From Chlorobaculum limnaeum (lineage in GTDB: Bacteria; Bacteroidota; Chlorobiia; Chlorobiales; Chlorobiaceae), in contig NZ_CP017305.1 in the NCBI RefSeq assembly GCF_001747405.1, positions 2,712,001 to 2,776,000 of the forward strand: a stretch of 64,000 nucleotides of DNA, in the 5' to 3' direction. The notes under the pieces are model-generated. The model was not told where the DNA came from, did not search any database, and saw nothing but the letters and a program-made list of their open reading frames with translations. The position numbers were made by a program, and so were the translations under genes. This document shows, one piece after another, positions 1 to 13,425 of this stretch (its first letter is position 1; every line of letters starts with the position of its first letter).

Positions 1-1
1 C

Positions 2-148
2 GGCCTCGGCGCGCAGGTCGCCGTTTCCGGTAACAGCGCCATCACCGTTGGCTACCGCTTCCGCCACCTTTCGAACGCGGGCACCAGCGAGCCGAACCGC
101 GGCATCAACAGCAACGCGGTGGTGCTGAGCTATTCGCTGCTCTACTGA
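2..148 (+). CDS. Acyloxyacyl hydrolase (PagL-like lipid A deacylase), C-terminal part
   Basis: The reading frame is open from the window edge and stops at 146-148; 48 residues are visible. They contain YRFRHLSNAG followed by PNRGIN and end in an aromatic residue after a beta-strand-like run (VVLSYSLLY). The H-x-S-N-A and PN-x-G-I-N pattern is the catalytic signature of the PagL/acyloxyacyl hydrolase outer-membrane family, and a terminal aromatic residue is typical of outer-membrane beta-barrels. The inferred role is removal of an acyl chain from lipid A in the outer membrane. The N-terminal part, including the signal peptide, lies outside the window. Confidence 0.75.
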   Translation, partial: GLGAQVAVSGNSAITVGYRFRHLSNAGTSEPNRGINSNAVVLSYSLLY

Positions 149-186
149 CGAAGCCACGCGAACCGTTCCGCAACCGGAGCATCGCC

Positions 187-840
187 ATGCGCATCGTTGA
201 CCTGAGCCATCCGGTTTCGCCCGAAATGCCGCTCTGGCCGGGAACGCCCCGGCCGGAGTTTTCCGATCTCTGCACGGTCGGGCGCGACGGCTTTGGCGAG
301 CGCTGGCTGCAACTCTCCTCCCACACTGGCACCCACATCGATGCTCCGGCGCACCTCTTCGAGGGTGCGGCCACGCTCGACCAGCTCGATGCCAGGCGCT
401 TCGTTGGCAAGGCGATGCTGCTCGACTTCACGGACTCGCGCCACGAGACGATCTCGCTCGACGAGCTGGTTGAGTTCCGGACGCAAATCGAACAAGCTGA
501 ATTCCTGCTGCTGCATACCGGCTGGAGCCGGTTCTGGGGAAGCGATGCCTACAACCGCGATTATCCGGTGCTTTCGCCAGATGCGGCGGAGTGGCTCTGC
601 GGAATGGGCATGAAAGGGATCGGCATCGACGCGCCGTCGTTCGACGCCGCAGACTCCAGGGAGCTGCCGGTGCACCGTTGCCTGCTCGGCGCGGGCCTCA
701 TTCTCATCGAAAATCTCACTGCGCTGGAGTCTCTTGGCGACAGCGATTTTCTCCTTTCCGCGCTGCCGCTGCCCATTTCCGGCGCGGAAGCATGCCCCGT
801 TCGGGCGGTCGCCGTAATTCCTTCTTTCGATACCGAATAG
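187..840 (+). CDS. Cyclase-family metal-dependent hydrolase (kynurenine formamidase-like)
   Basis: The protein has 217 residues. The metal-binding signature HTGTHIDAPAH is at about residues 46-56, and the N-terminus (MRIVDLSHPVSPEMP) is typical of the cyclase/arylformamidase superfamily (PF04199). Length is normal for the family. Members hydrolyse amide or ester bonds, for example N-formylkynurenine, but the substrate cannot be read from sequence and no tryptophan-degradation gene is nearby. The gene begins 38 bases after the deacylase and ends about 95 bases before the cytochrome b gene of the fumarate reductase operon, so it could be transcribed with either. Confidence 0.8.
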   Translation: MRIVDLSHPVSPEMPLWPGTPRPEFSDLCTVGRDGFGERWLQLSSHTGTHIDAPAHLFEGAATLDQLDARRFVGKAMLLDFTDSRHETISLDELVEFRTQIEQAEFLLLHTGWSRFWGSDAYNRDYPVLSPDAAEWLCGMGMKGIGIDAPSFDAADSRELPVHRCLLGAGLILIENLTALESLGDSDFLLSALPLPISGAEACPVRAVAVIPSFDTE

Positions 841-935
841 ACGATTCAGCTTGTCATTTCGACAGGATGGCGTTAGCTTGCGAAAAAATCAACGGATGGC
901 GCGACCCGCATCCTGTCACTGAAAGTTCACGAGTT

Positions 936-1604
936 ATGGACGCCACAGAGCAGAGAACATTCTCATCCATTGCCAGCAAGGTGCTTATGGCGCTGGCTGG
1001 AGTATTTCTGCTCGTGTTCCTCGCGGTGCATCTCGGCATCAACATGCTGCTGCTGGTTGATGATGGCGGCAAGGCTTTTTCAGCGGCGGCGGGCTTTATG
1101 GGCACCCATCCGGTGATCCGTATTTTCGAGCTTGCGCTCTTTGGCGGCATCCTGCTGCACATCGCCTTCGGGGTAGCCGTCAGCATCCGGAACCGCATGT
1201 CGCGTCCGATCCGCTACCAGCACCAGAGCCGTTCCGAAACCTCGCCGTTTTCAAAGTACATGCTGCACAGCGGCATGATCGTGCTGCTCTTTCTGGCGCT
1301 TCATTTCGTCGATTTCTACTTCATCAAGATCGGCATTACCGCGCCGCCGCCAGGCGTCGAGCGTCACGATTTTTACAGCCGCGCGGTGCTGCTGTTTTCC
1401 GACCAGACCTATTCAGCGATCTATCTGGTTTCGCTTCTTGCGCTCGGATTTCACCTGAACCACGCCCTTCAGGCCGCCATGCAGACGCTTGGCCTGAACC
1501 ATCCCCGATTCACGCCGCTCATCAAGGCGGCAAGCGCGCTGTATGCGATGATCATTGCCGGGGGGTTCATGGCGATTCCGCTGCGCTTCACCCTGTTCAA
1601 CTAA
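936..1604 (+). CDS. sdhC: Fumarate reductase/succinate dehydrogenase cytochrome b subunit
   Basis: This is a 222-residue hydrophobic protein with about five membrane segments and several histidines in or next to them ([38 protein letters not shown]). It resembles the single-subunit, di-heme, menaquinone-reactive cytochrome b558 of Bacillus and Bacteroidetes-type complex II. It anchors the catalytic subunits to the membrane and passes electrons between menaquinone and the Fe-S subunit. The frame is open further upstream, into the cyclase gene, but the ATG at 936 gives the normal family N-terminus. It is followed after 28 bases by the flavoprotein gene. In a reductive TCA organism it probably works as fumarate reductase. 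The symbol could equally be frdC. Confidence 0.9.
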
Positions 1605-1632
1605 CGCCGGGCCGTATGGAGATCGAGTGCCG

Positions 1633-3573
<1,941 letters not shown>

Positions 3574-3582
3574 CCGTCGATC

Positions 3583-4356
3583 ATGATTTTCACCCTGAAG
3601 ATATGGCGTCAGAAGAACGCCACGGACAAAGGAGGGCTGGTCACCTACAAGATCGGGGATGTCTCGCCAGACAGCTCTTTTCTTGAAATGCTCGACCAGC
3701 TCAACCAGCAGCTTGTTGGCAAAGGCGAGGATCCGGTAGCCTTCGATCACGACTGCCGCGAAGGCATCTGCGGAGCCTGCGGCCTGTACATCAACGGCCG
3801 CCCGCACGGCCCGCTGAAGGGCACGACCACCTGCCAGTTGCACATGCGCGCCTTCCGCGATGGCGAGACGATCTACATCGAACCGTGGCGAAGCGAAGCC
3901 TTTCCGATAGTCAGGGATCTGATCGTTGACCGGAGCGCCTTCGACAAAATCATTCAGGCCGGCGGCTACATCTCGGTGAATTCCGGCGGCATGCCCGACG
4001 CCAACACCATCCCCGTGCCCAAACCCAACGCCGACTCGGCCTTCGACGCCGCTGCCTGCATCGGCTGCGGAGCCTGCGTCGCCGCCTGCCCCAACGCCTC
4101 GCCGATGCTCTTCGTTGGCGCGAAAATCTCCCATCTGGCGCTCCTGCCGCAAGGCCGCATCGAAGCTGCGCGCCGCGTCCAGAAGATGGTCGCCGCGATG
4201 GACACTCTCGGCTTCGGCAACTGTAGCAACGCCTACGCCTGCCAGGCCGAATGCCCCAAAGAAATCTCCGTCGCCAATATCGCCCGAATGAACCGCGAAT
4301 TCCTCGCCGCAAAAATGTTCGCGGAGAAGGAGAAGAATGTCGGCTTCACGTTGTAG
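3583..4356 (+). CDS. sdhB: Fumarate reductase/succinate dehydrogenase iron-sulfur subunit
   Basis: The protein has 257 residues. The N-terminal ferredoxin domain carries the 2Fe-2S cysteines C58, C63 and C66 (CREGICGAC) and C84 (TTTCQLHM). The C-terminal domain has [12 protein letters not shown] and [15 protein letters not shown], which bind the 4Fe-4S and 3Fe-4S clusters. It transfers electrons between the flavoprotein and the membrane cytochrome b. It begins nine bases after the sdhA stop and is the last gene of the operon. Downstream, base composition becomes AT-rich and the sequence is accessory. Confidence 0.95.
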
Positions 4357-4410
4357 GAAAGAAGCATTCTTAATAATTTTCTGATAGGGGGTAGTTTTCA
4401 AATTGCCCCT

Positions 4411-4794: not shown

Positions 4795-6560
4795 ATGAAA
4801 TTCACCTCCATCAAATTCAAGGGCTACAGATGTTTTCAGGATGATTGGGCTGGCTTTGACGACGTCAAGCCGATCACAGTGATTATCGGACGGAATAATG
4901 TCGGAAAATCACATTTGCTACATCTTGTTAAAACTTCTTGCGAGGAATGGATTATTCCTCCGGTAAACGGCGCAAAATACCAGATTGGAGGAACACTTGA
5001 CGAGATGATGCTTAGACCGATATTTCCAGATCAGTATGATGGGCGGTTTATGTATAATTACTGGAGCAGTTTTGGATGCCATTTGGTCGGTAATCACATT
5101 TTAGCAAGCGTCATCAATACAGGACATGGAATTACATATAAGATAGATGATTTGTCATTTTTAGATGCTTTGCCGAATCAGTATCCTCAATTCATCGACG
5201 AAAATATCACAAAATTTACAAACATATTCAATAACGGTTCTCATACATTCGCCACATTCAATTTTCGTCACTTACTTGCTGATCGAGACGTTCAACCTGA
5301 ACCAGCAGTTACATCACTAAAACTCGAATTAGACGGAGCCGGAGCTACAAATATTATTCGTCGTTTTATTACTTCAGCAGTTGAAGATTATCCCCGTGAG
5401 CTGATACAGCAAGAGCTTTTACAATCGCTTAATCGCATCTTTGCGGAAGATGGACATTTTACTGAAATCCAAGTGCAAGAACATGATGCTACTCAAGACG
5501 GCGAACATCACTTGGCAGGCCGCTGGGAAGTTTACCTTGGGGAAGAACACAAGAAACTGGTTTCCCTCAGTAATTCAGGCAGCGGCTTGAAAACTGTTTT
5601 TCTTGTTCTGTTGAATCTTCTCGTGATTCCGAATATCGATAAGAAGCCAAAGCATATGTATGTTTATGCTTTCGAGGAGTTGGAAAACAATCTTCATCCT
5701 GCTTTGTTGCGGCGGTTGTTCAGGTATCTTGAGGAGTATGCAGTCGAAAACAACGTCCATATCTTTTTAACCACCCATTCGAGCACGGCTCTCGATCTTT
5801 TTGGCAGCTCGCCAAATGCGCAGATCGTCAGCGTCACGCATGATGGCAAGTCTGCTCGTGCAAAAACCATTTCAGCGCATTTCGATCAACTGAGTGTTAT
5901 TGCAGAGCTTGGCGCGAAGCCTTCGGATTTGTTGCAGGCCAATGGGATTATCTGGGTGGAAGGGCCTTCGGATCGTGTCTATATCAACAAATGGATTCAA
6001 CTGTTCAGTGATGGCAAGTGGCGCGAAGGGCGCGATTACCAGTGCGCGTTTTATGGCGGCGCATTGCTGGCTCGATTGGGCGTCGCTGACCCCAAAGCCG
6101 AGGAGGATTTTGTCAATCTGCTTCAGATCAATCCGAACCTTGTTCTCATTTGCGATGGCGACCGCACAGCGGAAAAAAATGGGCGGGTTCACGTCTGAAA
6201 GAGCGTGTCAGAAAGATCAAAAAGCAGGTCGAAAATGTACCAAATTCTCATATCTGGGTAACGGAAGCCAAAGAGATTGAAAATTACCTGTCCGGTGAAT
6301 TGCTCTCAAGTTATGCCGCAAATGGCACGCCAAGAGATCCCAAGCAATATGATCGATTCTTCCCTTCAAAGAAAACAGACAAAGACCTTTCGTATCTCGA
6401 AAGTCAGCTTGAGCGGAAATCCATCGACAAAATGGAACTCGCGTTCGAGGTCGCGCCCCGGATGACCAAAGAGATGATGCGCTTGCGCTTCGATCTGGAA
6501 AAGCAGATGACTGCAATCATCGAAAAAATCGCGCTGTGGAATGATGAAGGTGAAGTGTAG
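4795..6560 (+). pseudogene. OLD-family ATP-dependent nuclease, frameshifted in the TOPRIM domain
   Basis: The first frame (4795-6198, 467 aa) begins with an SMC-like ATPase: Walker A GRNNVGKSH at about residues 33-41, a signature-like SNSGSGLK, and a Walker B-like AFEELENNLHP. It continues into a TOPRIM nuclease domain (WVEGPSDRVYI, LICDGDR) and stops at 6196-6198. The rest of the TOPRIM domain (RKIKKQVENVPNSHIWVTE and onward) continues in the -1 frame to 6560. The frames join exactly at a run of seven A (6173-6179). Adding one A, or slipping back one base, restores a protein of about 587 residues. OLD nucleases often act in phage defence. This may be a true mutation, a sequencing error, or a functional slip site. 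Composition is AT-richer than the flanking core genes. Confidence 0.8.
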
Positions 6561-6578: not shown

Positions 6579-7433
6579 TTACTCTTCAGACCCATCATTT
6601 AACCCATCGGGATTCTTTAACGACCTCTTTTCTTCTGAAGCCAGGCGGCGCTCGACTTTCTTGACATCTTCTCCAGGAGGAAGAGTTTCAGGGCGAATTC
6701 CCCGTTCAAGCAGCGTGTTCCGAACAGCGGTATTATTGGTTACATGCTCTCTCGATATGTCGGATTCGGTACTCATACCATGCTCACGGGCATTGAAGAT
6801 GGTTATCTCGGTAGCGAAGTCTTTAGCTTTCAGGATAATGGTAGGAGCAAAATCAGCAAGTGGTCGTTTATCCGGTACATTCCACTGTGCCTTCATCGCC
6901 TGGGTGCTTTTCCCGAAAAGAGCATTATCACCTTTGCTGCGAATTAAAGCGAAACTATCCAGATTACCGATCTGCTCGAAAATGACACCTGACAACTCTT
7001 TTTCAGTTGCACTAAGCTTTTTGCGCGCCGATACCCGTTCCGCCTCAAGCAATCGCTGCTCGATAACCTCCGCCTTACGGGTCTGTATAGCAAAGTAGGT
7101 CTGAGCGAACGCGATTTCCTGCTTCCTCGGATCACCGTTCTGGGCAATGAGATAGCAGGCATACCGGGTCAGCATGATGTCGTCAATCTCCCGCTGCCCA
7201 CCAGACCCAAGATTGACCATTTTGTTGACGTCAACAAAATGGTCATTAACAGCATAGCCCGATACTTCGCAGGCGATTTTGGCTTTAGAGACAACAGTAC
7301 AAAAATTACGCCACTCTCCATAACCTAAAAGCTGCTGAATATCTCGGGCAAGCCAGAACTCAATACCTCCGTCAGTTTGCTGAGCATTGGCTTCAAAAGA
7401 AGAGGTAAGCGAATGAATCTGTTCTTTTTTCAT
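6579..7433 (-). CDS. dinD: DNA damage-inducible protein D (DinD)
   Basis: The protein has 284 residues, close to E. coli DinD (274 aa). The N-terminal region has the Bro-N-like FWLARDIQQLLGYGEWRNF and an ARYACYLIAQNGDPRKQEIAFAQ-type stretch (about residues 89-110). A central helical part is followed by TEKELSGVIFEQIGNLDS. In E. coli, DinD inhibits RecA filament activity and is SOS-induced. Here it is convergent with the split nuclease gene and lies in the same AT-rich accessory patch. About 65 bases upstream is a GAAC-N6-GTTC palindrome that could be an operator. Function in this organism is inferred from the family. Confidence 0.85.
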   Translation of the reverse strand: MKKEQIHSLTSSFEANAQQTDGGIEFWLARDIQQLLGYGEWRNFCTVVSKAKIACEVSGYAVNDHFVDVNKMVNLGSGGQREIDDIMLTRYACYLIAQNGDPRKQEIAFAQTYFAIQTRKAEVIEQRLLEAERVSARKKLSATEKELSGVIFEQIGNLDSFALIRSKGDNALFGKSTQAMKAQWNVPDKRPLADFAPTIILKAKDFATEITIFNAREHGMSTESDISREHVTNNTAVRNTLLERGIRPETLPPGEDVKKVERRLASEEKRSLKNPDGLNDGSEE

Positions 7434-7497
7434 GATTCAGGAATTCAATGGTTGAAATAATCAACACATAAGCTTTCAACCGGAACAGCATGGTACA

Positions 7498-7511
7498 GAA
7501 CCACATTGTTC
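7498..7511 (-). promoter_or_regulatory. Candidate operator palindrome upstream of dinD
   Basis: A GAAC-N6-GTTC palindrome lies 65 bases before the dinD start. Its half-sites resemble LexA half-sites of Gram-positive type, but the spacer is six rather than four bases. The assignment rests only on symmetry and on the damage-inducible nature of dinD elsewhere. Confidence 0.25.
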
Positions 7512-7566
7512 AACGTAAATAATTTGTATCTTTTTAGCAACCGCAAACGCCGAAACTCACTTATTC

Positions 7567-7624
7567 CATTTATAGTGACTTATAACGGATTATAGCAACG
7601 TATAACAACATTCCGCTATAAATG
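7567..7624. repeat. 10-bp phased TATA repeat array inside an inverted repeat
   Basis: Four units of ten bases each begin with TATA(G/A) at 7571, 7581, 7591 and 7601. Units 1 and 3, and 2 and 4, are most alike, giving a 20-bp period (TATAGTGACT, TATAACGGAT, TATAGCAACG, TATAACAACA). The array is enclosed by the exact inverted pair CATTTATAG (7567-7575) and CTATAAATG (7616-7624). It lies between dinD and the transaldolase terminator, outside any gene. Helical phasing suggests a protein-binding array, an intrinsic bend or a recombination site; none of these can be decided here. Confidence 0.6.
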
Positions 7625-7663
7625 ACTTTAATCGGGTATCTGCAGAATCGCGGACACTGCCCA

Positions 7664-7698
7664 TAAAAAAAGCCGGACATGCACTGCATATCCGGCTT
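7664..7698 (-). terminator. Rho-independent terminator of the transaldolase gene
   Basis: AAGCCGGA (7670-7677) pairs with TCCGGCTT (7691-7698). On the minus strand the stem is followed by a T run (six A on the plus strand at 7664-7669). It lies about 30 bases after the transaldolase stop. Confidence 0.85.
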
Positions 7699-7727
7699 CA
7701 AGACTCAATTCCGAAACTACTTACCGC

Positions 7728-8396
7728 TCACCCCTTCATCACGCTCGCGTCTTCCATGAATTTTTTCAGGCCGCTGTCGGTCAGCGGGTGGTTGGCGAGC
7801 TGTTTGATGACACTGTAAGGGATGGTGGCAATGTCGGCTCCTGCCATCGCCGATTCGACGACGTGCAGCGGGTTGCGCACGCTGGCGACGATCACTTCGG
7901 TGAGGTAGCCGTAGTTGTCGTAAATCGTGACGATCTGCTTGACCAGCTCCATGCCGTTGGTGCTGATGTCGTCGAGCCGACCGACGAACGGGCTGACGAA
8001 GTCCGCTCCGGCTTTGGCGGCAAGCAAGGCCTGCGTTGGCGAAAAGACCAGCGTGGCGTTGGTCTTGATGCCGTTTGAGGAGAAGTGCTTGATCGCTTTC
8101 AGGCCATCCACGGTGAGCGGGCACTTGACGACGATGTTCTTGTGAATGGCCGCAAGCTCCTCGCCCTGGGCGATCATCTCCTCGGCTTTGAGCGTGGTGA
8201 CCTCAGCGCTGACCGGGCCATCGACGATTTCGCAGATTTTGGCGATGTGCTCCTTGAAGTCGGCGTAGGTGAAGTTGGCCGGGTCTTTGACGATCTTGGC
8301 GATCAGCGACGGGTTGGTCGTCACGCCGTCGAGCACGCCGAGTTCAGCGGCGGCGCGGATTTCGTCGAGACTGGCGGTGTCGATAAAGAATTTCAT
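7728..8396 (-). CDS. tal: Transaldolase, TalC/FSA type
   Basis: The protein has 222 residues, the length of the short, single-domain transaldolases. MKFFIDTAS at the N-terminus, GVTTNPSLI at about residues 24-32, the Schiff-base lysine in NIVVKCPLT (K91) and KTNATLVFS are diagnostic. It moves a dihydroxyacetone unit between sugar phosphates in the non-oxidative pentose phosphate pathway. Its start follows the deoxyhypusine synthase-like gene by nine bases, so both probably share one transcript ending at the hairpin at 7664-7698. Some family members act as fructose-6-phosphate aldolases, which sequence alone cannot exclude. Confidence 0.92.
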
Positions 8397-8405
8397 GGGG
8401 CCTCC

Positions 8406-9458
8406 TCAGGCGTTGACCGGTTTTGCGTCGAGCATGGCGTTGAAGTTACGTGCCGGGCGGCCCTCCCAGTTGCGCTTGTGGTAGGCGTAACCGGCGATGA
8501 GCGGCATGGCGACGGTGGCTTCGGCGAAGACCATCTGCTCGTAAACCGTATCAACCTTACCCCACGAGCTGGCCTCCTTGAGGGTCGAGCCGGAGAGCGC
8601 ACCGTCGCGTTCGTCGGCCACGGTGATCTGCACGGCGTAGGTGTGCATCGAAACATCCTCGTAGCCGAGCACCTCAGCCGCAACGACAATGTCCTGCGTA
8701 AAGTTCTTGGGAACGCCGCCGCCGATCATGAAGATGCCGGTCTTGTCGTTCTCGATCTTGATTCTGGTCAGCTCGCGGAAATCCTTGACCGAGTCGATGG
8801 AGACGTGCTGGTCGGGGTTGTGCCACTGGTGGTGCACCAGACCGAAACCGGCGGAGCAATCGGAGAAGGCCGGGCAGAAGATCGGCACGCCTTTCTCGTA
8901 AGCCTTGTAAACGATGGAGTTCTTGTCGAGCCCCTTCTCTTCGATGTATTTGCCCATCTCGACGATGAACTCGCGCGACGAGTACGCGCCGGGCTGCATC
9001 GAGTTGGCGATGATGGCCATGGTGTCGTCGCAGACGCGCAGTTCGTCCTCGTCGATGTAGGTGTCGTAGATGCGGTCGATGGCGAGGTCGCGCAGCTCGG
9101 CGTCATCGGCGAACTGGCTGCCTTTCCAGTGCTTGAAGCCGAGCGCCTCGAAGAAGTCCTGATCGACGATGTTCGCGCCGGTCGAGACGATAGCGTCAAC
9201 CATGTTGTTGTCGAGCATGTCGATGATGACCTGCTTGAGGCCAGCGCTGATGAGCGAACCGGCGAGCGTCAGGATGACGGCGCACTCCTTGTCCTGCTGC
9301 ATTAAGTCGACGATGGAAGCCGCGCGAGCCAGGTTGCGCGCCTGGAAGGCCATGTCGGCCATCTGCTCGACCATCGGCACGACGTTGTGTTTCTTGATCT
9401 CGATATGCCGGATCGGCTCTCGCAGAAATTCCCCTTTTTTCATCGTTCTCTCTTCCAT
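8406..9458 (-). CDS. Deoxyhypusine synthase-like protein
   Basis: The protein has 350 residues. Motifs include STGANIVDQDFFEALGF at about 92-108, CPAFSDCSAGFGL near 195-207, MIGGGVPKNF at about 244-253 and SWGK with the lysine at 301. That lysine corresponds to the residue that carries the covalent aminobutyl intermediate in eukaryotic deoxyhypusine synthase. Bacteria lack eIF5A, so family members probably act on a small amine such as putrescine or agmatine (homospermidine-type chemistry). The start at 9458 has a clear AGGAG six bases upstream; an alternative ATG lies 15 bases further in. The gene is probably cotranscribed with transaldolase. Confidence 0.85.
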   Translation of the reverse strand: MEERTMKKGEFLREPIRHIEIKKHNVVPMVEQMADMAFQARNLARAASIVDLMQQDKECAVILTLAGSLISAGLKQVIIDMLDNNMVDAIVSTGANIVDQDFFEALGFKHWKGSQFADDAELRDLAIDRIYDTYIDEDELRVCDDTMAIIANSMQPGAYSSREFIVEMGKYIEEKGLDKNSIVYKAYEKGVPIFCPAFSDCSAGFGLVHHQWHNPDQHVSIDSVKDFRELTRIKIENDKTGIFMIGGGVPKNFTQDIVVAAEVLGYEDVSMHTYAVQITVADERDGALSGSTLKEASSWGKVDTVYEQMVFAEATVAMPLIAGYAYHKRNWEGRPARNFNAMLDAKPVNA

Positions 9459-9699
9459 TGGTGACTCCTGTAATATTTTAGGTGCTTCTGTTTGATTGTA
9501 ATGCTGGACTGACGAGTCGGGAGACTGCTGTGTTTGAGGAAAATCTCCTCCCGCTCAAGTCATTCTGATACAGAACGGGCCGGCCCCGAAATGACCGTGA
9601 ATCCCGAAATTTCTCAGGCCCGAACGCTCAGTTTATCGATTTCGATCCCGATTTCAATCTCGGCCTGAATCTGTTTGCTGATTTTTCACAATAAAAAAA

Positions 9700-9801
9700 G
9701 GAGAGCAAGCTGACTATATCACACACTCACATTACCGGATGCTGCTTCCTTCCGGACCTGACATGGTTGGGCAAGAGAATGCTGTATAGGACTTACTCTC
9801 C
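9700..9801 (-). ncRNA. ffs: Signal recognition particle RNA (small bacterial type)
   Basis: On the minus strand the conserved apical domain GTCAGGTCCGGAAGGAAGCA is present (within about 9743-9766). The ends pair as GGAGAG (9801 downward) with CTCTCC (9705-9700), giving an RNA of about 102 bases. A T run follows at 9699-9693, so the closing stem also serves as terminator. It is the RNA scaffold for Ffh in targeting membrane proteins. It lies between the deoxyhypusine synthase-like gene and the divergent trpS gene. Confidence 0.93.
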
Positions 9802-9842
9802 TAAATCTGCTATGTTCCTGTTTTTATCAGCGCCATTCAGAC

Positions 9843-9862
9843 GGCCTGAGTAAAAACAGGCC
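9843..9862. repeat. Short inverted repeat upstream of SRP RNA and trpS
   Basis: GGCCTG (9843-9848) and CAGGCC (9857-9862) form a hairpin with an A-rich loop in the space between the divergently transcribed SRP RNA and trpS. No T run follows on either side. It may be regulatory or incidental. Confidence 0.3.
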
Positions 9863-10018
9863 TCTAATATAGCGTTCTGAAGTTAAAATACAAAAACAAA
9901 GCTTTTTTCTTTGTGACAACTGTTATAACTTCGTAACCGTCCCGGAGAATCGCCTCCGGATTCAGCCATCTTATTGTCACGCAACGTTCGTCAGAACAGG
10001 AGCCAGAACCCCGACGCT

Positions 10019-11053
10019 ATGTCGATACAAAGGATTTTAAGCGGGATGCGGCCTACCGGAAGGCTGCATCTCGGCCACTACACCGGAGCACTCGAAAACT
10101 GGATCGCGCAGCAGAACCTTCTCCACCCCGACGGAAGCCGGGCCTACGAGACCTGCTTCCTGATCGCCGATTACCACAGCCTGACCACGTCGCTCGATAC
10201 GTCGAGCCTGTATGCGCACTCCATCGACATGCTCATTGACTGGCTCGCGGCGGGGGTCGATCCCGAAAAAAGCCCGGTTTTCCGGCAGTCGCAGGTGAAG
10301 GAGCACGCCGAGCTGTTCCTCATCTTCTCGATGCTCATCACCACGGCGCGGCTCGAACGCAACCCGACGCTCAAGGAGCAGGTGCGCGACCTGAACATGG
10401 AGACGCTCGTGTACGGCCATCTCGGCTATCCGGTGTTGCAGGCGGCGGACATTCTGCTCTACAAGGGCAACGTGGTGCCGGTGGGCGAGGATCAGATTCC
10501 GCACGTCGAGATCACCCGCGAGATCGCCCGCAAGTTCAACAGCCACTACCAGCATCCGACGCTGGGCGACGTCTTCCCGGAACCCGCGCCGAAGATCACG
10601 AAGTTCGCGCGGCTCGTCGGTCTCGACGGCAAGGCGAAGATGTCCAAATCGCTTGGCAACACGATTCTGCTCTCCGACGGCCCGGACGAGGTGATGGCGA
10701 AGATGCGCCCTGCCGTGACCGACACGCAGAAGGTGCGCCGCAACGATCCTGGCCGTCCCGAGGTGTGCCTGGTCTACAGTTACCACCAGAAGTTCACCGC
10801 CGAACCGCAGCTTGCCGAAATCGAGGCGGGATGCCGCTCCGGCGCGCTCGGCTGCGTGGACTGCAAGAAGATGTGCGCTGCGAACATTTCGGCGGAGCTG
10901 GCTCCGATCCTCGAACGGCGCAAGCACTACGAAGAGAGGCCCGAGATGGTGAAGGAGATTCTGCACGAGGGTGAAACCAAAGCGCGGAAGATTGCGGGAG
11001 AAACGATGAAAGCGGTCCGAGAGGCCATGAACCTTGGAGAGATAAACGCATGA
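10019..11053 (+). CDS. trpS: Tryptophanyl-tRNA synthetase
   Basis: The protein has 344 residues. It begins MSIQRILSGMRPTGRLHLGH, with the class I HIGH-type signature at about residues 14-19, and has AKMSKSLGN near residue 207. It attaches tryptophan to tRNA-Trp in the cytoplasm. The frame is open from a TTG at 9974, but the ATG at 10019 gives the normal family start. An insert near the C-terminus contains GCVDCKKMCA, typical of this bacterial subfamily. The stop overlaps the next start (ATGA), indicating translational coupling with the HAD phosphatase. Confidence 0.96.
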   Translation: MSIQRILSGMRPTGRLHLGHYTGALENWIAQQNLLHPDGSRAYETCFLIADYHSLTTSLDTSSLYAHSIDMLIDWLAAGVDPEKSPVFRQSQVKEHAELFLIFSMLITTARLERNPTLKEQVRDLNMETLVYGHLGYPVLQAADILLYKGNVVPVGEDQIPHVEITREIARKFNSHYQHPTLGDVFPEPAPKITKFARLVGLDGKAKMSKSLGNTILLSDGPDEVMAKMRPAVTDTQKVRRNDPGRPEVCLVYSYHQKFTAEPQLAEIEAGCRSGALGCVDCKKMCAANISAELAPILERRKHYEERPEMVKEILHEGETKARKIAGETMKAVREAMNLGEINA

Positions 11054-11757
11054 AGATGACATCTGCCGACAGCAGCCCGAAAGCCTTCATTTTCGACATG
11101 GATGGAGTGCTGGTCGATAACATGAGAATGCACGCGCAGTCATGGGTCGATCTGTTCGCCGACTACGGTCTTTCGGGCCTCGATCCGGAGCGCTACCTGG
11201 TCGAAACCGCAGGCATGAAAGGACTCGACGTCTTGCGCTACTTTCTCGATCCCTCGATTTCGCACGAAGAGGCTGACAAACTCACGGAGCTGAAGGATAT
11301 TCTCTACCGCGTGATGAACCGCCACGCCATCGTCGCCATGCCCGGGCTCGAACCGTTCCTCGACCGCGCCGCAAGCGCTGGCGTCCGGCTCGGCATCGGC
11401 ACGGGAGCCGGGCCGAAGAACATCGACTACGTGCTCGGCCTGACCGGCCTGACGCCTCGCTTCGAGGTGGTGGTCGGCGCGCACATGGTGAGCCGCGGCA
11501 AGCCCCATCCGGAGACATTCCTTCAGGTTGCCGAACGTCTCAGCGCCGATCCGGCCTCGTGCATCGTCTTCGAGGATGCGCTTCCCGGCGCGGAGGCTGC
11601 CGCCGCCGCGGGCATGAGCTGCGTGGCCGTGACCACCACCAACCGCCCCAAGGCGTTCTCGGCGTTCGACAACGTCATCGCCACCATCGACCATTTCGAA
11701 GGGCTGATGCCCGAAGCACTGCTGGAACTGTGCGGCGCTGCAAAAACCATGTCTTAA
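11050..11757 (+). CDS. HAD-superfamily hydrolase (beta-phosphoglucomutase-like)
   Basis: The protein has 235 residues. Motif I is FIFDMDGVLVDN at about 13-24, motif II is IGTGAG, motif III includes SRGKPHPETF, and motif IV is VFEDALPGAEAA. The order and the helical cap of about 70 residues after motif I mark it as the phosphatase/phosphoglucomutase subclass. The substrate cannot be predicted. It overlaps trpS by four bases and precedes argS by 12, forming a tight group. Confidence 0.85.
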   Translation: MKMTSADSSPKAFIFDMDGVLVDNMRMHAQSWVDLFADYGLSGLDPERYLVETAGMKGLDVLRYFLDPSISHEEADKLTELKDILYRVMNRHAIVAMPGLEPFLDRAASAGVRLGIGTGAGPKNIDYVLGLTGLTPRFEVVVGAHMVSRGKPHPETFLQVAERLSADPASCIVFEDALPGAEAAAAAGMSCVAVTTTNRPKAFSAFDNVIATIDHFEGLMPEALLELCGAAKTMS

Positions 11758-11769
11758 CGATTCATTCCG

Positions 11770-13425
11770 ATGCGAGCTTTTTTCCTCCCATTCATTCAGG
11801 ACGCCCTGCAAAAAGCGGGCATAGAGACCGACAAGGAGATTCAGATCGACAAGCCGACCGACAAGAAGTTCGGCGATTTCTCGACCAACATTGCCTTTCT
11901 CCTGGCCAAAGAGGCGCGGAAAAATCCGCGTGAGCTTGCGGGACAGCTTATCGGACTTCTGTCGTTCCCGGACGGCACGGTGACGAAAACCGAGGTGGCC
12001 GGGCCCGGTTTCATCAACTTCCATCTTGATTCGGCCTTCGTGATGCGCTCGGCGAGCGCGGTGCTCGACGAAGGCGCGTCGTTCGGCTGCAATGAGTCGG
12101 GAAAAGGACAGAGGGCGATCGTGGAGTACGTAAGCGCCAATCCGACCGGCCCGCTGACCGTCGGACGCGGACGCGGCGGCGTGCTGGGTGACTGCATCGC
12201 CAACCTGCTCGAAACGCAGGGGTACGAGGTGACGCGGGAGTACTATTTCAACGACGCCGGACGGCAGATGCAGATTCTCGCCGAGTCGGTGCGTTACAGG
12301 TACCTCGAAAAGTGCGGCCACGAGATCGATTTCCCGACGACGCACTACCAGGGCGACTACATCGGCGAGATCGCCGAGACGCTCTTCATCGAGCATGGCG
12401 ACGGGCTCGCTTCGCTTGACGATCTCGCGCTCTTCAAGGAAACCGCCGAGGGGATCATCTTCAGCTCGATCCGCAGAACGCTCGAACGGCTCTCGATCAC
12501 GCACGACAAGTTCTTCAACGAGCACACGCTCTACCTCTCGCACGAGGGCCAGCCGTCGGGCAACCAGCAGGTGATCAATGCGCTCGACGCCAAAGGATTC
12601 ATCGGGCGCTACGACAATGCCACCTGGTTCATGACGACGAAACTCGGGCAGGAGAAGGACAAGGTGCTCGTCAAATCCTCCGGCGACCCGAGCTACCGTT
12701 TGCCGGACATCGCCTACCACGCCACCAAGTTCGAGCGCGGCTTCGACCTCATGGTGAACGTTTTCGGCGCGGATCATATCGACGAGTACCCCGACGTGCA
12801 GGAGGCGCTGAAGATTCTCGGCTACGACACCTCGAAGATCCGCGTGGCGATCAACCAGTTCGTCACCACCACGGTCGGCGGCCAGACGGTCAAGATGTCC
12901 ACCCGCAAGGGCAACGCCGACCTGCTCGACGACCTGATCGACGACGTGGGCGCGGATGCGACTCGCCTCTTCTTCATCATGCGCAGCAAGGATTCGCACC
13001 TGAATTTCGATGTCGAGCTGGCCAAGAAGCAGTCGAAAGACAACCCGGTCTTCTATCTCCAGTACGCCCATGCGAGGATTTGCAGCCTCGTGCGCATGGC
13101 CTCGAAAGAGGTCGGCTTCGACGAATCATCGGTGATCGGCGAAGGGCTGCCGCTGCTGGCGAGTGAAGCGGAGATCGACCTGGCCTCGGCGCTGCTCGAC
13201 TTCCCGGATGTCATCGCCTCATGTCTGCGCCAGCTCGAACCGCAGAAGATGGTGGAGTATCTGCACACGGTGGCCGAGCGCTACCACAAGTTCTACCAGG
13301 AGTGCCAGATCCTGAAAGCGGAGCCGGAAATCCGCTACGCGCGCCTCGTGCTCTCGCTCTGCGTCCGCCAGGTGCTGCAGAACGGCTTCAGAATCCTCGG
13401 CATCTCAGCGCCGGAGTCGATGTAA
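11770..13425 (+). CDS. argS: Arginyl-tRNA synthetase with an altered HIGH motif
   Basis: The protein has 551 residues, a normal length. It has the N-terminal Add-1 domain, the catalytic core ([19 protein letters not shown] at about 117-135), the KMSTRKGN motif near 378, and the C-terminal anticodon-binding DALR domain ending in [14 protein letters not shown]. It charges tRNA-Arg. The position normally filled by H-x-G-H reads T-V-G-R, so both catalytic histidines of the class I signature are replaced, while the surrounding residues are conserved. The rest of the protein is intact, so it is presumed functional. Confidence 0.93.

Follow-up and report, generated by a model that had tools for sequence, protein, structure and literature searches.

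The window analysed here is a stretch of 64,000 nucleotides from the genome of Chlorobaculum limnaeum (G000; G006 and G016 are sister genomes). We found a phased array of TATA units between the dinD and tal genes, and the features of this region are as follows.

6464-6559, plus strand: end of an OLD-like ATPase gene; in G016 a 96-bp remnant of it (87.5% identity) adjoins the ATPase unit described below
6579-7433, minus strand: dinD (BRO-N), above the cut-off of the NCBIfam DNA damage-inducible protein D model and matching Bro-N; by synteny with G016 it holds the slot of the ATPase gene
7509-7524, minus strand: stretch common to several dinD upstream regions (5 of 16 loci have it exactly or nearly so, by eye), probably dinD's own upstream element
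7567-7624, minus strand: phased array, in minus-strand order TATA-16-TATA-10-TATA-10-TATA-10-TATA, with a 9-bp inverted repeat formed by its outer units
7627-7630, minus strand: probable decayed extra unit, TAAA here and TATA in G006 (by eye)
7670-7698, no strand: tal hairpin, terminator-like in look and outside the array
7728-8396, minus strand: tal, whose 3′ end is single here and duplicated behind the ATPase gene in G011 and G016

The array and its slot

The TATA units start at 7571, 7581, 7591 and 7601, in exact 10-bp steps, and then at 7617, after a step of 16 bp. An exact 9-bp inverted repeat joins 7567-7575 to 7616-7624. The first-pass annotation had described both the four units at 10-bp intervals and the exact repeat at the block ends, and both were borne out. 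The repeat is not a separate closure: its arms are the outermost units of an array whose halves oppose each other. The phasing had also been called unusual for chance, and the statistics agree: dinucleotide shuffling of 7434-7727, the region between the two genes, yielded in 20,000 rounds neither three TATA at 10-bp spacing nor four TATA at any period from 5 to 30. In the 2.8-Mb genome, three TATA at 10-bp spacing occur in three places, against one place for the reversed control, and four in a row (two overlapping matches) are found only at 7567-7624. Another three-unit site of the same genome (L009, 1501-1524, TATATAACCGTATAACCGAATATA) is either a relic or chance. A known RNA element found no support as an explanation: Rfam at gathering thresholds matched only tRNA and SRP RNA in the window, both away from the array.

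We read the tal 3′ flank by eye in 30 loci (54 genomes had a tal match). The G006 flank carries a block similar to that of the window, one 10-bp unit shorter and with its phase kept. The G011 and G016 flanks differ from the window in sequence and have spacing of the same kind, and no such array was seen in the remaining 26 of the 30. Within the first 12,000 bases of the window, G016 aligns with 1-4358, with 7659-12000 in pieces and with the OLD-like gene end at 6464-6559. The slot between this gene end and the array holds a tal duplication and an ATPase gene in G016, and dinD in the window. To the left of the array, neither G016 nor G011 aligns clearly with the window, and common descent of these arrays is therefore not proven. 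The window block has the 10-bp TATA units and the single 16-bp step of the array class, and dinD rather than an ATPase gene directly downstream. We found no ATPase match in G000 or in G006 and no ATPase remnant in the window; hence we term the window array an orphan, and the loss of its ATPase is deduced from the neighbouring genomes. The simplest order of events is that array and ATPase came first and dinD later, and the reverse order is also allowed.

Arrays and ATPase genes in other genomes

A search for the block in related genomes, proposed in the first-pass annotation, succeeded at the level of architecture and not of sequence. DNA alignment of 7540-7650 against 40 relatives gave no convincing match (best E 0.016). 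Within the order, 27 of 98 genomes contain the spacing TATA-16-TATA-10-TATA-10-TATA, which comprises the first four minus-strand sites, and none contains its reversed control, so that the pattern is not absent from related genomes. An ATPase gene lies beside 15 of these 27 arrays (some are cut by contig ends), an ATPase fragment consisting of the first 59 or the last ~29 residues lies beside two, and neither is found at ten. The latter comprise the window, G006, three loci with ATGGAT and a stop soon after it, one locus ahead of a different gene, and four that are probably unrelated: three near-copies of a single further sequence and an AT-rich place. At the three ATGGAT loci (L055, L061 and L063, with the array at 1501 or 1540), ATGGAT follows the array and the stop comes four more codons on. 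They are possible relics with the ATPase deleted.

Conversely, 24 Chlorobiales ATPase loci were scanned from the gene side. All 22 with a recognised start have TATA units spaced by 10 bp upstream, with the final TATA 17-50 bp 5′ of the ATG. Such closeness points to an overlap with the promoter and to a role in autoregulation. A scan of species genomes returned 359 relatives of the ATPase, with record titles that include Chlorobi, Proteobacteria, Deltaproteobacteria, Chlamydiales, Planctomycetes, Verrucomicrobia, Actinomycetes and Chloroflexi; the majority come from metagenome bins, whose individual taxon assignments may be wrong. The best 80 of the 359 were taken, and 78 of them had sufficient upstream DNA. 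Phasing was significant at p<0.05 in 65 of these 78 loci, which include about ten similar upstream regions, and at p<0.01 in 42; 13 of the 78 lay above p<0.05. Control stretches reached p<0.05 in 4 of 78 cases far upstream and in 2 of 75 downstream. In the last 110 bp before the start codon of 68 non-redundant loci, self-match peaks at lag 10 (z 29.7), lag 20 (18.2) and lag 26 (11.0), followed by lag 30 (6.8). The steps between neighbouring TATA upstream of the ATPases are mostly 10 bp (134 times), then 16 (41), 20 (18), 2 (14) and 8 (12). Inverted symmetry of the upstream regions reaches z 22 against shuffles, the comparison on which it rests, own-versus-cross arm identity being biased with centres picked by maximum. 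At L185, 23 of 26 arm positions are complementary. Different units can follow the same plan, as read by eye: CTATCAATGT at L187 and GGTTATTGGT at L203, each repeated within its locus. At loci where TATA units are lacking, the array was called from self-match alone.

The ATPase also has relatives in 110 plasmid records, nine of which were read upstream by eye. A Polaromonas plasmid carries a clear array (10-10-10-16-10) and a Protochlamydia plasmid a partial one; the other seven have no clear TATA array, and two of these contain GTTTAT/ATAAAC units. Among 35 viral-contig candidates, none was confirmed as a relative of the ATPase. One relative (38% identity) comes from a record that lacks annotation and bears the label ‘Bacteriophage sp.’, and no TATA array was seen upstream of it. 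A phage element is thus not supported.

The partner ATPase and the probable mobility of its unit

The product of the partner gene has about 395 residues and scores above the cut-offs of the Pfam models AAA_16 and AAA_22 and below that of ATPase_2. An AlphaFold2 model, built on 23 aligned relatives out of the 80 loci, has a mean pLDDT of 83.6 and a pTM of 0.81 (the remaining four models: 68-75). The predicted fold resembles archaeal AAA+ ATPases and Orc1/Cdc6, and the secondary structure of its C-terminal end reads as a winged helix. By Z score among 1000 re-aligned chains, the best whole-length matches are the archaeal AAA+ ATPases PABY2304 (2qen; Z 24.1, 4.6 Å, 321 residues) and SSO1545 (2fna; Z 22.6, 4.0 Å, 317 residues). 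Lower scores belong to Aeropyrum ORC2 (Z 19.8, 5.6 Å, 335 residues), to an NLR resistosome (19.4) and to Cdc6/Orc1 on origin DNA (18.5), and apoptosome ATPases, eukaryotic ORC and TnsC come next. Foldseek ranked Cdc6/Orc1 on origin DNA first, with TM-scores of about 0.5 and large rmsd. A sequence-profile search matched ORC subunit 4 alone and weakly (E 0.008), and the NCBIfam orc1/cdc6 model scored 18.2 against a cut-off of 181.3. The AAA+ domain with a C-terminal winged helix that characterises Orc1/Cdc6 is present in the predicted fold, and this likeness is not evidence of function.

Several loci suggest that the ATPase and its array probably form a mobile unit. Just 3′ of the ATPase gene, G011 and G016 carry a repeated piece of the end of tal (72 nt at 85% and 51 nt at 92%); a search of the window for another copy of this 3′ end found none. 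Direct repeats of 31 to 221 bp bracket array and gene, within 500 bp on both sides, at 9 of 74 loci and at 3 of 417 control intervals; the remaining 65 of the 74 have no close bracketing repeat. A wider search found some repeat at 21 of 74 loci, often at a distance from the unit, and a 954-bp repeat (99%) at L185 that exceeds the 500-bp limit and is not counted among the nine. The repeat at L192 lies 421 bp upstream, exists in several copies and may be of a different kind. At L149 the bracketing repeat takes in part of a tRNA-Leu, and at L157 and L183 it is the start of a long gene, putatively type I restriction hsdR; the gene directly 3′ of the ATPase unit is, judged by its start, presumably hsdR at L157, L164 and L183, in three organisms. 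The right-hand repeat begins 4-15 bp past the stop codon at L200, L183, L157 and L185, and the left-hand repeat ends 100-119 bp 5′ of the start codon at L183 and L200. At these last two loci, the repeats enclose the ATPase gene with its 100-119 bp of 5′ DNA and nothing more. The variable repeat lengths (31-221 bp, and 954 bp) do not support an insertion sequence with a target duplication of fixed length.

Interpretation of the orphan array

We regard the window block, with good confidence, as the orphan array of a probably mobile one-gene unit for an Orc1/Cdc6-like AAA+ ATPase, with dinD in the place of the partner gene. The first-pass annotation had proposed a multi-protein operator or the site of a lost element. 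Both come close to the array of an absent mobile ATPase unit, and the part of the proposal that fell away is the site-specific recombination site, for which we found nothing in support.

In the mechanism that we propose, the array would be the 5′ end of the ATPase unit, placed before and probably overlapping the ATPase promoter, and its half-sites of about 10 bp would form two opposed sets about the 16-bp step, so that one face of the helix would carry all the units. That the ATPase itself is the direct binder of the array we infer from the winged helix and from the joint occurrence of gene and array in distant phyla. It may bind the units through the winged helix, assembling along one face of the DNA, and the opposed sets would allow two stacks of subunits to meet at the 16-bp step. 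The ATPase might thereby control its own promoter or mark the DNA that carries it. The window lacks both the ATPase gene and the tal-end duplication that accompanies it; dinD fills their place, in the simplest order as the later arrival, and the array is left without its partner. A wider proposal, which we advance only tentatively, is that an array and one Orc1/Cdc6-like ATPase make up a minimal mobile element across bacterial phyla, in which the array might act as both operator and origin-like assembly site and insertion might leave long, variable duplications by an undescribed route.

Several known systems invite comparison. Archaeal Orc1/Cdc6 initiators have origin recognition boxes, DNA repeats next to the initiator gene. 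The ATPase shares with them AAA+ and winged-helix domains (predicted here) and DNA repeats beside its gene; however, it has 12-16% identity, is bacterial and has units of about 10 bp at its own promoter, and for it a role in replication is hypothetical. SSO1545 and PABY2304 are closer in structure but have only 15-16% identity, and the Pfam ATPase_2 model matches the ATPase only below its cut-off; such an array is not known for either protein. Plasmid iterons flank the gene of a DNA-binding protein and recur in direct orientation at close to a helical turn. The array resembles them in its direct repeats of about a helical turn next to the gene of a putative binder, but it has opposed sets about a 16-bp step and belongs to one-gene units on mostly chromosomal contigs. 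IniR of mycobacteria (PMC5760070) has an AAA+ ATPase domain likened to SSO1545 and binds a promoter region; it differs from our ATPase in its 818 residues, its MalT-like domain and its induction of the iniBAC operon. We recognised no description of the ATPase family, the array or its mobility among open-licence PMC papers, which does not prove novelty. The finding connects an unusual sequence pattern with a family of ATPases that is widespread and of unknown function, and it predicts this family's binding site. If the unit is indeed mobile, it would rank as a very small mobile element in which no recombinase has yet been seen.

Alternatively, the array might be the origin or mobility site of an autonomous one-gene element, used for replication or insertion and not for gene control. 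This idea partly overlaps the orphan-array reading, and the Orc1/Cdc6 and TnsC fold matches and the excess of bracketing repeats over control intervals speak for it; we judge it unlikely, as most loci have no such repeat close by and no relative was confirmed on viral contigs.

A rather improbable reading is that dinD has taken over the array as a regulatory site, with a host protein as binder. In G000 as in G006, the array does precede dinD, and its first half is by eye better preserved between the two than the flanking DNA, which, with the in-phase 10-bp shortening in G006, would fit use by dinD. Yet G006 keeps the array although a stop breaks up its dinD, of which only residues 1-171 match. 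The proposal to look near other dinD genes also went against such a site: the array is present at 2 of 16 dinD loci, both at tal, and missing before all 14 elsewhere, so a general dinD operator was rejected. Chance, or AT-rich bending DNA that has no specific binder, can hardly be credited: the array DNA is AT-rich and intergenic and its phased TATA steps could bend, but the shuffle and spacing statistics across many genomes oppose this, as does the 10-bp plan kept at loci with other units.

Some further observations concern dinD and the genes beside it. A perfect palindrome of 16+16 bp (TGACCATTTTGTTGAC/GTCAACAAAATGGTCA) lies within dinD at 7214-7245, and the G006 copy has the same. An OLD/GajA-like ATPase gene spans 4795-6560 over two overlapping frames (4795-6198 and 6150-6560) and is perhaps frameshifted. 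Since dinD matches the PADLOC candidate PDC-S13, these two genes make the tal 3′ flank look like a small defence island. A fragment at 4411-4779 matches a REP-associated tyrosine transposase under the cut-off.
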